Part shown: one piece after another, positions 16,635-55,689 of the stretch
Layout: the number at the start of each line of letters is the position of its first letter
How positions within the stretch are numbered: position 1 is the first letter of the stretch
Source: Alphaproteobacteria bacterium
GTDB lineage: Bacteria; Pseudomonadota; Alphaproteobacteria; Caulobacterales; Aquidulcibacteraceae
NCBI GenBank assembly: GCA_030430715.1
Contig: JAUIJZ010000010.1
Span: forward strand, 1-55,689
Length of the DNA stretch: 55,689 bases
Direction: 5' to 3'
The notes under the pieces: generated by a model
What the model saw: only the letters and a program-made list of their open reading frames with translations
What the model was told of the DNA's origin: nothing
The model's database searches: none
Translations under genes and position numbers: made by a program

Positions 16635-17297
16635 ATGAAATCCGCCGTCATCGTCTTCCCAGGCTCGAATTGCGACCGCGACGCAGCCCGCGCGTTGCAG
16701 CGCATCACGAACACCCCAGCGCACATGGTCTGGCACAAGGAGACATCCCTTCCCGGCGGGCTGGACTTGGTCGTGCTGCCCGGCGGCTTCTCCTATGGGG
16801 ATTATCTCCGCTCTGGCGCGATGGCGGCGAAAAGCCCTGTTGTACGCGCCGTTATCGCCCACGCCGAGCGCGGCGGCCTCGTTCTTGGCATATGCAACGG
16901 CTTCCAGGTTCTAACCGAGACAAGATTGCTGCCCGGCGCGCTCGCACGCAATGCCGGTCTGAAATTCGTCTGTAAGGACGTTCCGCTCGCCATCGACAAT
17001 GCCGATACCGCCTTCACCCGGGCCTATCGCTCTCGGACCGAAACCGAAATTCCCATTGCACATGGCGACGGCCGCTTTGTCGCCGACGAAGAAGAACTCA
17101 ACCGCATCGAAGGCGAAGGACGCGTTGTGTTCCGCTACAAAGCCAATCCAAACGGCTCAGCCCGCGACATCGCCGGACTCATCAATGATCGCGGCAACGT
17201 CTTGGGGATGATGCCCCACCCTGAGCGCGCAACAGATATCGCGCTGGGCCGCACGGGCGGACGCGCCGTATTCGAAAGCCTGATGGACGCGGCATGA
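16635..17297 (+). CDS. purQ: Phosphoribosylformylglycinamidine synthase subunit PurQ
   Basis: The glutaminase subunit supplies ammonia for formylglycinamidine ribonucleotide synthesis in purine biosynthesis. At 220 residues it has the full class-I amidotransferase triad: nucleophile C87 in GICNGFQ and the HPE histidine-glutamate pair in MMPHPERAT near the C-terminus. The N-terminus [14 protein letters not shown] and [13 protein letters not shown] are diagnostic of bacterial PurQ. The partner genes purS and purL are not in this window. Its stop overlaps the start of the following acidic hypothetical protein by four bases, so the two are co-translated. Confidence 0.96.
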
Positions 17298-17698
17298 GCG
17301 CCAAGAAACAACCTAACGCCGCCGGTTCCGATTTCGATGCCGAAGTCGATGCCGCACGCAACCGCTTGGAAAAAGCGATCCACGAAGAAACCGGCTTCGA
17401 TGACTTGGCCGCGTTGCAAGCAATAACGCCCCTATTAGAAAAGAAGATCGCCTCGCGGCGGCTCGCTTTTGCATTGGGCGACGAGGACGACGACGAAACG
17501 CAAGTTTCTGTTATCCATGTTCAGACCGACGAAGAGCTTGGCTTCATCTTCGCCGAAGATGGCGAGTATGTTTTTGAATCCAACCACCCCGATTATTTCG
17601 ACGATTTCGTCGATGACGATCCGGATCGCTTCGTAGAACGTCTGTACGAGACATTGCGCGCCGACCTTCCCAAATATGAGGTCGAGTACAAGAATTGA
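17294..17698 (+). CDS. Acidic protein of unknown function downstream of purQ
   Basis: A 134-residue soluble, strongly acidic protein that I do not recognise. The N-terminal 60 residues are probably helical ([17 protein letters not shown]), followed by an Asp/Glu cluster (GDEDDDETQ) and a beta-rich part, then [14 protein letters not shown]. There are no cysteines, signal peptide or membrane helices. It overlaps purQ by four bases (ATGA), so it is expressed with it. The length and composition look like a genuine conserved gene, but no function can be given. Confidence 0.7.
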
Positions 17699-17704
17699 CG
17701 CCTT

Positions 17705-17726
17705 TTGGTGACTGCAAGTTCACCAA
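17705..17726. repeat. Inverted repeat in front of the CpaE-Sel1 gene
   Basis: TTGGTGA-N8-TCACCAA is a perfect 7-bp inverted repeat just after the preceding gene. It could be a weak terminator or an operator for the gene at 17797. A second, looser dyad (TTGT...ACAA around the palindrome ACACATGTG) follows at about 17738-17762. Confidence 0.35.
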
Positions 17727-17796
17727 TCTTGCTAAATTGTTTGCAACACATGTGCGACAAAAATAGCGCCGGGTAGGGATTTCGGCGCAGGTCTTC

Positions 17797-20301
17797 GTGA
17801 TCGACAGCACATCAATAAAGAACGCACGGGCGCGCGCCCGCATGCGCAAAATGGCGCCACCACAAGAGAAACCGCGCATTCGCGTCAGGGCCGCTACGGC
17901 GCCGTCCCCGATCGCAATCGAAACGCCTCGCGAGGACGAAGAAGCGCCGTTTGATCCCCCGGATGCGGACGAAATCGCCGCTATGGGCGCTTGGACCGGC
18001 GAAGAGGACGCCGGCGACGAGCATGCATGCGCGTTCTCTTGGCATGAATCGGCGCCTGTAGAGGCTGAGCACCAATGCATCACGCATGCAGAATGCGCAG
18101 CGGATGATGCCGAGCCAGTGTTTGCCCCCGAGACAACACCCGTTTTGACCACGCCACCAATCAGCTCAGCGCAACAACGCTTTGAAGCCGACGCGATTTC
18201 AATGATCGCTTCTCATGCCTCCGCACATGCGCCAGTTGCGGAGAACGAACTAGAGCTTACGCAGCAACAACCTGCCGGGAGATCAAATGATCCAGCCTAC
18301 GAGCAGCCTGCACCGCCAATCACGATTCATGGCAGTTGGGATCGCCAAGAAATCAGCGGCATGCTGGACGCCTTCGCGTCCGACCGCCGTATGGCGCGCG
18401 CATCGATCACCATTGAACGCGGCGGCGTAGACGCCGCCCTGGCGCGTTTCGATCACCAGCCACCGCCCGATCTGCTCATCCTGGACAGCACGCTACGGGC
18501 ACGCGAATTATTAGACGGCGTCGATCATCTGCTCACTAGGATGGGTGAGAAGGGAAAAATTTTCGTCGTCGGCGCTGTCAACGATATCGGCCTACTACGC
18601 GAACTTGCAGCCAGGGGCGTGAAATACGTTGTGCCGCCCATCCGCGAAGATGATCTCGTTCGCGCGGTCTGCGGCCTTTATGCAGAGGCGGACACTTCGC
18701 ATGTCATCGCAATCATGGGTGCACGCGGCGGCGTCGGCGCATCTACGCTGGCGCACAACCTGGCCTGGTCCCTCGCCGAAAGACACGGCGCCGAAACCAC
18801 TTTGATCGATCTCGACATTGGCTTCGGCGCGGCGGCTTTCAATGTTCAACGCCCAGCGACGCTTACATTCGCAGATGCGGCTGGCGCTCAAGACATCGGC
18901 GCCATTGAGCGCGCCGCAGTCCACCATACGCCGCGCCTGCAAATTCTCGCCGCGCCGACAGAACTCAATCCCGCATACGAAATTGACATTCCGACACTTG
19001 AACATCTGGTCACGCGTGCGCGCCGCGCCACTTCGTTCGTGGTGCTGGACTTGCCGCATGCTTGGCATCCTTGGGTTCGACGCGCACTCACCCTCGCTGA
19101 TGAAGCCGTTATTGTGGCCGCCCCCGAACTCGCCAGCCTGCGCAACACCGACAATATTCTGAAAGATCTCAAAAACGAACGCGGCACTAGTGACCCTCTA
19201 CTTGTTATGTCGATGTGTGGTGTACCGAAACGGCCGGAAATCTCAGCCAAAGAGTTCGCACAGGCTCTAGACACCAAACCAATCGCCACGCTCGCCTATG
19301 AGCCCGCCTTATTCGGCGCCGCCGCGCTAGCAGGGCAAATGCTGGGTGAAGCGGCGCCACGCGCGAAAGCGACGCGAACCATTGACGCGCTCGCACACGC
19401 ACTCACAGGTCTTCCGCCAATAAAAAACACGAAGACGCTAACGTTGAAAGACACGGCGCACGCCATGAAGGCCGCCGCACACCGTATGCAAAGCAACGCT
19501 GATCAAACAGTGGACGACGCCCCGCTGGAATTGCTTCCAGTCGAAGATGAGTACATCGCCAAAGCCCGCGGAGCGACAGAAGCCAGCCTCGACACACCGG
19601 CAGCCGCCCCACCGCGGGCAAAGTCTTGGCTGCCCTTGCGCGTCGCCTGTTATGTCGCCGCGATCCTTTTGCTAAGCTCGGTGTGGCGCCTCCAAAATGA
19701 CAGCAGTGCCGAGGCTCATGCGCCCACGCCGCCCGCTTCGGCTGCTGAGCTCTCAGATGATACCCGCGCCGCTTGGGGCTTGCTCTTGGATGGGCGCGAG
19801 CGCGAAGCCGCGGCACGCCTACGTATCCTCAGCGAACAAGGGTTTGCGCCAGCGCAATACTTTCTCGCGAACGCTTATCTGCGCGGAACGGGCCTGTCAG
19901 CAAATCGCGCGCAGGCACGGCTTTGGACCGAACGCGCGGCGCAATCTGGACATGCGCGGGCGATGCATGATCTTGGCGTTTATTATGCCAGCGGCGACAG
20001 CGCATCCGCCGATGACGCGGCGGCTTTGCTTTGGTTCCGCCGCGCAGCCGAGCGAGATGTCGCCGATAGCCAATATAATCTCGGCGTCTTCTACCAAGAA
20101 GGACGCGGCGTCACCGCCGACGCAAGCGAAAGCTTGTTCTGGCTGCGGCTCGCCGCACGACGAGGCGGAGAGGACGCCGCCGCACGCATCCGTGCCGTGG
20201 AAGCGCAATTAAGCGCTGACGAAATTGCCCGCGTTCATGCCCGCGTGCATGCGTTTCAGCCCCGCATGACGATGGCCTCGCTTGAGGTCAGCGGACGCTG
20301 A
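17797..20301 (+). CDS. CpaE/TadZ-like ATPase fused to a membrane helix and Sel1 repeats
   Basis: This 834-residue protein has an unusual layout. Residues 1-170 are acidic, Pro/Ala-rich and probably disordered. Residues about 175-300 resemble a degenerate receiver domain (DLLILDSTLRARELLDG, GKIFVVGAVNDIGLLRELAARG). From about 305 there is a MinD-type ATPase with atypical P-loop MGARGGVGASTLAHNLAWSL, in which the usual lysine is alanine, as in CpaE/TadZ, and a TLIDLDIGFG strand. A membrane helix lies at about 612-632 (LPLRVACYVAAILLLSSVW). The rest (about 660-800) carries at least four Sel1 repeats, e.g. PAQYFLANAYLRGTGL and DSQYNLGVFYQEGRG. A GTG at 17797 is used; an ATG 15 codons later is possible. 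No other pilus-assembly genes are near. The C-terminal 14 bases overlap the convergent sppA. Confidence 0.82.
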   Translation: MIDSTSIKNARARARMRKMAPPQEKPRIRVRAATAPSPIAIETPREDEEAPFDPPDADEIAAMGAWTGEEDAGDEHACAFSWHESAPVEAEHQCITHAECAADDAEPVFAPETTPVLTTPPISSAQQRFEADAISMIASHASAHAPVAENELELTQQQPAGRSNDPAYEQPAPPITIHGSWDRQEISGMLDAFASDRRMARASITIERGGVDAALARFDHQPPPDLLILDSTLRARELLDGVDHLLTRMGEKGKIFVVGAVNDIGLLRELAARGVKYVVPPIREDDLVRAVCGLYAEADTSHVIAIMGARGGVGASTLAHNLAWSLAERHGAETTLIDLDIGFGAAAFNVQRPATLTFADAAGAQDIGAIERAAVHHTPRLQILAAPTELNPAYEIDIPTLEHLVTRARRATSFVVLDLPHAWHPWVRRALTLADEAVIVAAPELASLRNTDNILKDLKNERGTSDPLLVMSMCGVPKRPEISAKEFAQALDTKPIATLAYEPALFGAAALAGQMLGEAAPRAKATRTIDALAHALTGLPPIKNTKTLTLKDTAHAMKAAAHRMQSNADQTVDDAPLELLPVEDEYIAKARGATEASLDTPAAAPPRAKSWLPLRVACYVAAILLLSSVWRLQNDSSAEAHAPTPPASAAELSDDTRAAWGLLLDGREREAAARLRILSEQGFAPAQYFLANAYLRGTGLSANRAQARLWTERAAQSGHARAMHDLGVYYASGDSASADDAAALLWFRRAAERDVADSQYNLGVFYQEGRGVTADASESLFWLRLAARRGGEDAAARIRAVEAQLSADEIARVHARVHAFQPRMTMASLEVSGR

Positions 20302-53049: not shown

Positions 53050-53610
53050 ATGCGGCCAATCATATTCGCGGTCGCCGCGCTCGCCTTGAGCGCGTGCGAC
53101 ACACCTTCACAACACCAAGCTGCGGGCTGCGCCCAAAGCGCAACGCATAACGTTATGTGGAGTCGGTCCGGTGAGCCGGACACTCTGACAACTTGGTCCG
53201 ACGGCCCCACCTGCAAACAGGCCGCGGTGGTTCTGGTGGCGCGAAACGCCCAAGGCGACCCGCTTTGGACGTTCGCCTCCACCCATTACGACATGACAGT
53301 CGGCGGCGCGGCGCCGCCCGACGCGGACAATGTGACACAAGAGCAAATGCAGAGCTTCCTCGCCTCATGGGCCAATGTCAGCTTGAGATCGACGGCCGAT
53401 CTGCCCGCATGGAGCGAAAACATGAGCCGGCCCGGCGAAGGCGTTGAGACGCTCGCCTATGAGAGCGCGCTCGATCGCGAGGCGTATGAAACGCTGCGCG
53501 GGCGCGGCCTGCCGATCATCTGCTACGCCGCGGCCGCGGCGGCTGTTCAGTGTCTCGCGATCGAGCCCGGCACGCGCGCGCCAATACTGATTGCGGCCTA
53601 CGGTTCGTGA
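53050..53610 (+). CDS. Lipoprotein, tandem copy 1
   Basis: A 186-residue lipoprotein with signal peptide ending in lipobox LSAC (Cys about residue 16). Conserved features shared with the next two genes: a cysteine in AAGCAQSATH, a second cysteine in DGPTCKQAAVVLVARNAQGDP, an aromatic strand LWTFAST, and a closing part with LPIICYAAAAAAVQC. The internal cysteines could form disulfides in the periplasm. No known family recognised. Its stop overlaps the GTG of the next copy. Confidence 0.7.
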   Translation: MRPIIFAVAALALSACDTPSQHQAAGCAQSATHNVMWSRSGEPDTLTTWSDGPTCKQAAVVLVARNAQGDPLWTFASTHYDMTVGGAAPPDADNVTQEQMQSFLASWANVSLRSTADLPAWSENMSRPGEGVETLAYESALDREAYETLRGRGLPIICYAAAAAAVQCLAIEPGTRAPILIAAYGS

Positions 53611-54125
53611 GAATCGCACTGCTCTTGCTGCCGCTAGCGCTTCTGGCTTGCGGGCAGGAGCGCATTGCCGGCTGCGAGCTTACAGCGACGCGCGAGATTT
53701 CTTTCTCAAGCATCGAAACCGATGACGTCATCACGGCGCGCAGCTTCGGCCAAGCATGCCGTGATGCGATTGGCCTTATCACGGTGACCACGGCGGACGG
53801 CGCGCCCGCTTGGGCCTGGACGGCGCCGCTGCACCGCGCATTCGGTGATGGCTTCATCGAAGGCGAACCGGAGACTATGCAAGCGTTTCTGGAGCGATGG
53901 ATCGAAACCGATCTCTCCTCCACGTCCGCTGCGCCGGAATGGAGCCAATTACAGGAGGGCCGCACGACCTTGGACGCCCTAACCTATGAAGACGTCCGGG
54001 CGCGCGATCTGCCTATGCTCTGCCATTTTGCGGGAACGGCCCGGCAAGCCTGCGTGTTTTGGGAGCCGGCGGCGGGGGGCGCCGGTCATTTCTTCGACCG
54101 CGAAATTACCGAGGGGACATTATGA
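53607..54125 (+). CDS. Lipoprotein, tandem copy 2
   Basis: A 172-residue relative of the previous gene, starting at GTG 53607 (GTGA overlap with the previous stop); the signal peptide ends LALLAC. Parallel features: IAGCELTATREI, FGQACRDAIGLITVTTADGAP, AWAWTAPL and MLCHFAGTARQAC. Sequence identity is moderate, so the copies are old. Ends four bases into the third copy. Confidence 0.7.
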   Translation: MRIALLLLPLALLACGQERIAGCELTATREISFSSIETDDVITARSFGQACRDAIGLITVTTADGAPAWAWTAPLHRAFGDGFIEGEPETMQAFLERWIETDLSSTSAAPEWSQLQEGRTTLDALTYEDVRARDLPMLCHFAGTARQACVFWEPAAGGAGHFFDREITEGTL

Positions 54126-54691
54126 AGCGTTTGGCGATCGCATTGACCGCACTCTCACTGGCGGCGGGCTGCTCACCGCCGCCGCCCGAAAGCGCCAGCG
54201 TTCCTATCGACCAATTGCCCATTCAAGCCGCGGGCTGCAACGCGCAAGCGGCGCGCGATTGGTCGGCCGTCGGCAGCCAATATTATGTGATCGAAGCCGA
54301 GGCGCACGGGCCGACCTGCGGCGAAGCCATCGCCACAATCCGCATCAAATCGCGCGACGGCGTGGTGCTGTTCACGCGCGACTATCCGACAGCGGAAGTT
54401 CCGCTCGCATTCAGTCCGCATAGCGGCGAAACCGGTCTGCGGATCGAACTCGATGCATGGGCGCAGAACGCCGCGCTGGTGCAAACAGCGGATTGGCTTC
54501 CGGCATGGCCATCGGGCGCGCCGAGACCGCCGCGCTTTCAGCCGGAAGTCTCACGGACGCAGTACGAATCCGCGCGCGGTGCGCAAGGTCCGCTGTTCTG
54601 CTTTCCAGATGGCGGCGAGAGCAATGCCTGCATCGCCATGGCCGGCAATCGTGCGCTTCTGCTCGGCTCGCTCACGCCAGAGCGCTTATAG
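54122..54691 (+). CDS. Lipoprotein, tandem copy 3
   Basis: A 189-residue third relative starting at ATG 54122, with lipobox LAAGC followed by a Pro-rich stretch. Parallel features: QAAGCNAQAARDW, HGPTCGEAIATIRIKSRDG, LFTRDYP and LFCFPDGGESNAC. All three genes are translationally coupled, and all conserve the four cysteines in the mature part. Function unknown; the pattern suggests small secreted binding domains. Confidence 0.7.
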   Translation: MKRLAIALTALSLAAGCSPPPPESASVPIDQLPIQAAGCNAQAARDWSAVGSQYYVIEAEAHGPTCGEAIATIRIKSRDGVVLFTRDYPTAEVPLAFSPHSGETGLRIELDAWAQNAALVQTADWLPAWPSGAPRPPRFQPEVSRTQYESARGAQGPLFCFPDGGESNACIAMAGNRALLLGSLTPERL

Positions 54692-54766: not shown

Positions 54767-54794
54767 TTGCAGACGCGGCAATGCACCCTATCTT
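54767..54794 (+). promoter_or_regulatory. Possible promoter of the mini-ORF transcript
   Basis: TTGCAG (54767-54772) and TATCTT (54789-54794) are spaced by 16 bases, a reasonable -35/-10 pair. Transcription would begin near 54801, about 40 bases before the mini-ORF. Confidence 0.4.
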
Positions 54795-54825
54795 TCTAGT
54801 CCGGCAATTGGCGCCGGGATTTAAG

Positions 54826-54876
54826 AAAGGAGGTGATCCATGTCTCATGTGTCTGCTGAGGGGATGCGCCTCCTTT
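54826..54876 (+). promoter_or_regulatory. SD / anti-SD hairpin across the mini-ORF
   Basis: AAAGGAGG at 54826-54833 is exactly complementary to CCTCCTTT at 54869-54876; with T-G and G-C pairs the stem reaches 10 bp. It would hide the ribosome-binding site when folded, and the downstream arm covers the last codons and stop of the mini-ORF. Confidence 0.65.
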
Positions 54877-54878
54877 AA
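54840..54878 (+). CDS. 12-codon mini-ORF with a full-length Shine-Dalgarno
   Basis: ATG at 54840 begins a frame encoding MSHVSAEGMRLL and ending at TAA 54876-54878. Immediately before it AGAAAGGAGGTGATCCA (54824-54840) is identical to the reverse complement of the expected 3' end of alphaproteobacterial 16S rRNA (GGATCACCTCCTTTCT), a pairing far longer than normal sites. Whether the peptide is functional or the frame is only a ribosome-binding decoy cannot be told by eye. Confidence 0.6.
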   Translation: MSHVSAEGMRLL

Positions 54879-54925
54879 AACAGGGCTTTGGCCTTGTTAG
54901 GGACATCCCTAGGCTCGGCATATGC

Positions 54926-54959
54926 ACGGGGCGGTCGGAAGGCCGCCCCGTTTTGCTTT
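54926..54959 (+). terminator. Strong terminator of the mini-ORF transcript
   Basis: CGGGGCGGTC-GGAA-GGCCGCCCCG is a 10-bp stem with a GNRA-like GGAA loop followed by TTTTGCTTT. It defines the 3' end of a short transcript of about 150 bases from 54801. Confidence 0.85.
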
Positions 54960-55210: not shown

Positions 55211-55689
55211 TCACCGGAACTCCGCGTACGTCTCCGGGAATTTCTCGCGAACCCATTCGACATAAGCTGGCCTGTCCGACATCGAACGCTTTTTTTCTTT
55301 CGCCCACTGATGGAACGCGACGCTCGCATCGAAAAAATCGCTAAAGCCGAACTTTGTCGGGTTCTTTTCAATGTGTCCTTGGAGCAACCAACTAAGTTGC
55401 TCGTCGGTTTGGCAGTACGTGAGTGTGCGGAACGTTCCGAAGTTTCGACGCTTCCCCTTGGTGTGATACGGAAGACGGCCGAGTAGGAGAAACACTAGCC
55501 GGAAGAGCGAGGCGATAGCCGCTGCATTTATCTCGTCCTTCGCCTTGGCCACTTTGAGCATACTGAGCGCGTGGTTCAGTTCATCCTCAATGGCTTTTCG
55601 ATGCTGTCTGTCCACAGAGCCTATCGAACTGAACACCGACGCCCGCAACACCTCGAAGGCGGAGACGTAAAGGCCCTCCCAGAACGGCA
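55211..55689 (-). CDS. Unrecognised protein, 5' part outside the window
   Basis: The frame is open to the right edge without a start in doubt-free position; an internal TTG/GTG-type start at 55651 would give 146 residues, but the upstream in-frame residues PFWEGLYVSAFEVLRASVF look like real protein, so it is probably the C-terminal 158 residues of a longer gene. Features: a helical EDELNHALSMLKVAKAKDEI, a Cys-Gln (YCQTDEQL) and a Trp-rich C-terminus (FHQWAKEKKRSMSDRPAYVEWVREKF). GC content is visibly lower than in the rest of the window, which suggests acquisition by transfer. Family not recognised. Confidence 0.6.
   Translation of the reverse strand, partial: PFWEGLYVSAFEVLRASVFSSIGSVDRQHRKAIEDELNHALSMLKVAKAKDEINAAAIASLFRLVFLLLGRLPYHTKGKRRNFGTFRTLTYCQTDEQLSWLLQGHIEKNPTKFGFSDFFDASVAFHQWAKEKKRSMSDRPAYVEWVREKFPETYAEFR

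Follow-up and report, generated by a model that had tools for sequence, protein, structure and literature searches.

In the known insertions into tRNA and tmRNA genes, as far as the available parts of their descriptions go, a small RNA gene is split at a short core sequence and is partly restored by the insert. The locus described here resembles them in these respects, and it differs from them in three others: its target is an sRNA gene, the break lies near the 5' end of this gene, and no recombinase is seen at the junction. It also differs from the insertions made by the dusA-targeting integrases, whose target, according to the accessible portion of their description (PMC4482086), is a protein gene and whose integrases have been identified.

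We analyzed a stretch of 55,689 nucleotides (hereafter, the window) of an Alphaproteobacteria bacterium, i.e., contig JAUIJZ010000010.1 (C109) of assembly GCA_030430715.1 (G000). The RNA concerned is closest to CC2171, which reportedly goes back to Landt in 2008. Rfam types this family (RF01867) as an sRNA, whereas its members here have a mini-ORF behind a Shine-Dalgarno sequence (SD). Rfam 15 lists one added covarying pair for RF01867 in the part of the article that was available (PMC11701678). Most Caulobacter ncRNAs are reported to originate in intergenic regions for which ribosome profiling showed no translation, CC2171 not necessarily being among them (Schrader 2014, PMC4117421, in the sections at hand). 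At the level of titles and abstracts, and within a limited library, we noticed no account of a CC2171 mini-ORF or of an attachment site, and the accessible portions of PMC5082802 and PMC11476347 hold nothing bearing on CC2171-type RNA.

The locus at the end of the window is very probably a CC2171-type RNA gene that was split after its start codon by foreign DNA and partly rebuilt. The observations comprise the split itself, a core shared by both junctions, a change in composition, homology across the joined site, and fold predictions. The insertion junction would lie inside the host's CC2171-type gene, with the break at TGTCTCAT, directly 3' of the start codon. The host would have kept the upstream block together with the extended SD and the initial codons, and the foreign DNA would provide the remaining ORF, the anti-SD, the terminator, and probably one strand of a long-range stem, P1. 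The native back half, with the genus-typical lysozyme gene after it, would be carried on another contig, C55.

The extended SD, AGAAAGGAGGTGATCCA (54824..54840, forward strand), is complementary over 17 bases to the 3' tail of 16S rRNA, and its core recurs class-wide. Its final A is the A of the ATG, so that 16 bases stand 5' of the start codon. The initial annotation had relied on an expected 16S tail; the sequence is a perfect reverse complement of TGGATCACCTCCTTTCT, with which three 16S copies from the same order terminate (two in G456 and one in G563), and the claim holds for these copies. No 16S gene was found in the window strain's own assembly, nor in genomes of the same genus by a 16S family search (0/5) or by a tail pattern (0/11), the single-contig genomes G027, G023, and G020 included; this absence within the genus is probably a search miss or a gap in the available sequence. 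The 12-mer AGGAGGTGATCC has one mismatch-free occurrence in the 3.24-Mb genome, and by simple arithmetic the chance expectation for the exact 17-mer in a genome of this size is about 0.0004. The frame that follows is the 12-residue one already proposed: the mini-ORF at 54840..54878 (forward strand) encodes MSHVSAEGMRLL, its codons 1-3 coming from the host and the remainder from foreign DNA. Upstream, a conserved block, presumed to hold the promoter and the 5' end of the RNA (54783..54823, forward strand), aligns partially in relatives, and parts of the stretch 54783-54853 are conserved there. Of the transcript limits suggested earlier, the intrinsic terminator was confirmed (54926..54951, forward strand, supplied by foreign DNA); the promoter-like pair was not, as a promoter scan gave no sigma-70 consensus pair upstream of the mini-ORF.

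RF01867 matches the window over model positions 1-159 of 159, with E 6.3e-7 in a 171-base search, and the alignment takes in the SD, the start region, P1, and the terminator hairpin. Its score of 37.6 bits is half of the gathering cutoff (75), so we name this copy CC2171-like, a hybrid, and not a certified member. The front half (upstream block, SD, and ATGTCTCAT) is the host's CC2171-type RNA copy; alone, it scores 18.3 bits as a truncated match. This lower score, set against that of the whole hybrid, suggests that a terminator and a P1 strand compatible in part come from the foreign DNA, part of the gain being generic to any GC-rich hairpin. The second RF01867 match in the genome lies at C55:43-196 (50.5 bits), and relatives of the same genus score from 45.8 to 72.8 bits, G005 reaching only 30.6. 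Second matches in G058, G551, G042, G528, and G589 were taken as chance, their flanks carrying no family-like SD-start motif. In the loci examined, 217 of the 218 places with the SD-start motif are followed by an ORF of less than 70 codons, and the remaining one (L093) runs off its contig. The split gene probably encodes a small ribosome-binding RNA. The earlier view, that of a small structured RNA carrying a strong ribosome site, is supported, and the family that could not be named at that stage can be: it is a divergent CC2171-like RNA.

In relatives, the RNA is flanked by small lipoprotein genes and by a lysozyme gene. Among 22 relatives' loci, many of them short and two of them (L059 and L078) the same place, 20 have an upstream homologue of 54122-54691 or 53550-54125, 15 have the lysozyme gene downstream, and 14 have both. 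The window carries three small lipoprotein-like ORFs without a Pfam family (53050..54691, forward strand), the upstream neighbours of the RNA gene in the genus. In G000, these two flanks are found on separate contigs, the lipoprotein side in the window and the lysozyme side on C55 (locus L057). The genome position is the one common to relatives, the upstream lipoprotein genes being shared and the downstream half being found with the lysozyme gene on C55. An 8-base core, TGTCTCAT, is common to both junctions: it occupies 54841..54848 (forward strand) on the attL-like side and is repeated at C55:59-66. When the flanks are joined at this core, the genus-typical RNA is restored, with a 26-codon ORF, MSHCHSVGALFQAWSTSSVSSIGVRA. 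Among the matches listed, 12 of 12 align across the junction of the joined site (for instance L004, 82% over 203 bp), and with the window as query 12 of 12 stop at position 125, five bases beyond the core end at 120. Hence, TGTCTCAT gives what is expected of an integrative element, i.e., a short direct repeat, present at each junction, and an empty site that can be restored. Beyond the junction, the GC content falls from 0.64 to about 0.52, and it stays at about 0.52-0.55 up to the contig end (54849..55689), in DNA that is single copy in the genome. The GC drop, together with homology that ends approximately at the core, indicates that the back half of the window is foreign, and that the anti-SD and the terminator therefore arrived with the insertion. 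Of the insert's other end, only 58 bases are known.

Because the assembly is a draft of 172 contigs, a mis-join or a mixture of strains has to be weighed: C109 could have been mis-joined near its end, the strain having one intact CC2171 gene. The distance from the junction to the contig end is 0.84 kb, and C55 starts 58 bases before the core, these first 58 bases being without SD. This explanation seems to us improbable, because different non-native DNA stands on each side of the same 8-base core, which would be short for a chance join, and because in two viral loci, L263 and L269, this RNA is broken next to a recombinase gene.

These loci come from a motif search of IMG/VR, which returned nine stretches. 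Five are CC2171-type RNA, and L264, L265, L267, and L268 are longer ORFs of 71 to 134 codons. A recombinase gene lies at most 350 bp from the RNA in three of the five copies. In L263, the homology to relatives takes in the SD and is lost within TGTCTCATTGTC or just after it, and a recombinase-like gene is located 201 bp from the RNA, its Pfam Phage_integrase score (21.3 bits) being below the cutoff of 27.1. In L269, the homology starts within a few bases of the SD, and a serine recombinase is found 144 bp away. The integrase beside the RNA of L266 was not counted as support, since a tRNA-Gly gene sits between them. A tRNA-Gly gene adjoins the RNA in both L266 and L261, and in L266 the integrase gene comes next. 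A tblastn search with nine recombinases against 240 motif loci, many with short flanks, gave beyond L263, L266, and L269 only XerC-like genes at four loci (L151 and L212-L214); we did not count them, because they resemble a recombinase of the window's genome that we take for the chromosomal XerC/D. Within the genus, the locus L007 (contig C45 of G005) has after the SD a back half unlike that of its relatives, which carries an exact copy of the 16S tail, GGATCACCTCC; further downstream, its DNA matches relatives again.

At the locus itself, the foreign side holds no recombinase gene in the 0.84 kb up to the contig end. It carries an ORF of 158 aa (55211..55687, reverse strand), open at the contig end and without useful relatives: searches of Pfam, PHROGs, and NCBIfam gave no family, no plasmid or phage sequence matches it at E 1e-3, the relatives' loci hold no match, and three viral contigs match it over 24 residues only. 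None of the six integrase matches in the genome could be linked to the insert. We found no end word of at least 14 bases shared between the insert and the integrase contigs C153, C45, C8, and C31, i.e., four of the six contigs (C8 and C31 in part), C83 and C155 having been left out of this comparison. On C45 of G000, an integrase-like gene (16819-18081, L244) lies directly 3' of a guaA-like gene, presumably guaA, in what is likely a separate island.

The RNA extends far beyond the genus. RF01867 at E<=0.001 is found in 101 of 200 genomes of the order, 30 of them above the cutoff, and in one of 14 control genomes, that of Caulobacter vibrioides. The relatives' search covered 61 genomes, that of the window among them, and 35 of these give a DNA match to the block; 10 of 13 further same-genus genomes match, none above the cutoff. 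The genus-typical ORF starts with MSHCH and has 22 to 27 codons, the exceptions being L007 (14) and the window (12). For a wide scan, we used as motif AAAGGAGGTGATCC followed by RTGTC. Scanning genome contigs in this way gave at least 117 stretches; among the 80 matches listed, 75 have names assigned to Alphaproteobacteria and three to Proteobacteria only. One Acidobacteria MAG and one Woeseiaceae MAG (L089, L138) carry the strict motif outside Alphaproteobacteria among the matches listed, and the Acidobacteria copy has a 13-codon ORF. Within the class, the strict motif occurs in 46 of 290 genomes, with one match each, and a reversed control gave 0. In 18 such loci, RF01867 reaches its cutoff in four (Methylobacterium, Bosea, Brevundimonas, and Roseiarcus), and a laxer search, made on eight loci of which six belong to the same 18, gave sub-cutoff matches of full length in all eight (28 to 41.7 bits, E 2.2e-5 to 0.051). 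As the motif served to collect those sets, their SD and MS start are a product of this selection; of 68 loci retrieved through a DNA match or the RNA model, 66 have a looser motif, L057 (the split half) and L062 being without it. The SD varies slightly within the order (GGTGACC, GGTGGTC). In several Rhodobacterales loci, including L077, L090, L101, and L119, the RNA lies 3' of one particular gene and is sometimes followed by another. The upstream gene resembles a queuosine-precursor transporter gene, and the occasional downstream one seems to be an ArfB-like ribosome-rescue gene. A Rhodobacter UpsM-like mraZ leader, as outlined in the available part of PMC5089854, was rejected as a candidate, since an mraZ pattern gave none in loci L077 and up.

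The conserved features of the family were studied on 211 members, 208 of them unique, with duplicates, three unrelated genes, L093 (which runs off its contig), and the G037 copy excluded. An ORF of 12 to 31 codons is kept in 200 of the 208, against 32% in shuffled sequences and 27% and 33% in the other frames (kinship being ignored), and its length is kept in all 65 members found without the strict motif. The later tests were made on these 200 members, the eight with longer ORFs, some perhaps ordinary genes, being excluded. A terminator-like hairpin lies downstream in 174 of the 200. P1 opens just 3' of the start codon and closes just 5' of this hairpin. In the four main groups, the own strands of P1 beat strands taken from other groups in 77/81, 27/31, 20/22, and 21/22 cases; in a wider test, own strands exceed swapped ones within groups in 74/94, 32/35, 17/22, and 19/30, and across groups in 179/200. 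P1 thus covaries across the family. A leader role, which the initial annotation had left open, is not borne out: the terminator-like hairpin ends most members, and the neighbour genes vary between groups among the loci listed.

Near the end of the mini-ORF, the anti-SD noticed earlier, CCTCCTTT, is present at 54869-54876. It is part of a longer copy of the 16S tail, GGAU-G-CGCCUCCUUU (54862..54876, forward strand), for which a 14-bp pairing with the SD that leaves a G bulged is predicted. No shuffle out of 1000 of the window's foreign part paired as well with the SD; for other back halves, the same count was 0/1000 for L007, 95/1000 for the native one, and 218/1000 for L263. In the minimum fold of the window RNA, the entire SD lies inside this 14-bp hairpin, and P1 is absent from that fold. 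The possible strands of P1 in the hybrid (54846..54860, partly paired in the RF01867 alignment, and 54914..54924, supplied by foreign DNA, both on the forward strand) form a duplex of -15.9 kcal/mol; among 1000 shuffles 16 are as good, and so are 5 of the 237 other 21-mers in the insert. The hybrid P1 is thus only moderately better than chance, and the SD:anti-SD hairpin is the predicted minimum. The mean probability that the SD is unpaired is predicted at 0.02 in the hybrid (0.08 with other transcript ends) and at 0.61 in the joined native form. Since the hybrid SD is predicted to be almost fully paired, ribosome loading on it should be low, the joined native form being more open. The predicted group means are 0.40, 0.45, and 0.39, and 0.18 in the Rhodobacterales group, so that the family does not as a rule have a mostly open native SD; by prediction, partial masking of the SD is common in the family.

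This closure could be read, as it first was, as a ribosome-sensing switch, i.e., a separate and intact regulatory RNA with an anti-SD hairpin that ribosomes or 30S subunits open. The complementarity between SD and anti-SD far exceeds chance, and in the family a stretch pairing with the SD is enriched, being found at p<=0.05 in 37 of 200 members (10 expected) and at the lowest possible p, 0.01, in 12 (2 expected). However, the median p is 0.21 and most members have no mimic so strong, the anti-SD lies in DNA absent from the locus in the compared relatives, and the native back half is found on C55. We consider such a switch highly improbable, and an anti-SD as a class-wide rule was rejected, the enrichment being only mild. 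The check in relatives proposed earlier gave a divided answer, the SD and the long-range stem being conserved and CCTCCTTT being only mildly enriched in the family.

A related alternative is a trans-acting base-pairing sRNA, whose CCUCC-like loops would bind the SDs of target mRNAs and whose own SD would mask the loop. An anti-SD-like motif is described for the Caulobacter sRNAs SisA-D in the part of PMC12559287 at hand, and CCTCC occurs in 13 of 22 members of the Rhodobacterales group (about 26% expected). In the other three groups, however, the excess is only mild (26/94, 8/35, and 4/30, for about 20%, 15%, and 8% expected), and we regard this role as unlikely.

The preferred reading, that of a split CC2171-type gene, leaves the question of what the native RNA does. 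It could be a small mRNA that encodes a useful micropeptide, with the extended SD serving only to ensure high translation. The start and the stop after 12 to 31 codons are widely kept, as seen above, and in the window's genus N/S is 1.37 for a neutral 2.65, about half, so the peptide may matter there; one other set shows 2.31 for a neutral 2.97, and third codon positions are slightly more variable in the window's genus (0.65 vs 0.61-0.62 bits). However, N/S exceeds the neutral value in three other sets (3.12 vs 2.37, 2.77 vs 2.42, and 3.31 vs 2.52), pairs being non-independent in all these comparisons, no close pairs were available in a sixth set, and in each of the five other sets the third positions vary least. 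The peptide seems weakly constrained across the family, except mildly in the window's genus, and we hold a micropeptide function to be rather doubtful. We lean, with somewhat less than even confidence, toward a native RNA that is gated by the translation of its mini-ORF and acts via ribosome binding and short translation more than via its peptide; a ribosome on the mini-ORF would need to melt P1.

More speculatively, and as a possibility in which we place less confidence still, Alphaproteobacteria would widely share this usually single-copy RNA, with about 11 to 17 bases complementary to the 16S tail and a translated ORF of 12 to 31 codons, the act of translation counting for more than the peptide. 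Mobile elements may use its start region as an attachment site, as they do with tRNA genes, because this region is so conserved, bringing with them a replacement back half; here, and perhaps in L007, a near-perfect copy of the 16S tail would shut the SD and so act as a cap, keeping host ribosomes from loading at the junction.

The naive reading of the locus is corrected, since the insert brought the striking anti-SD closure of the mini-ORF. To the sites where mobile DNA seems to insert, the split gene adds one that encodes a small RNA other than tRNA and tmRNA. The analysis also indicates that much of Alphaproteobacteria shares the family that Rfam knows as a Caulobacter sRNA, its mini-ORF standing behind an extreme SD. 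The family offers a testable case of an RNA in which selection may act on translation and mostly not on the product.
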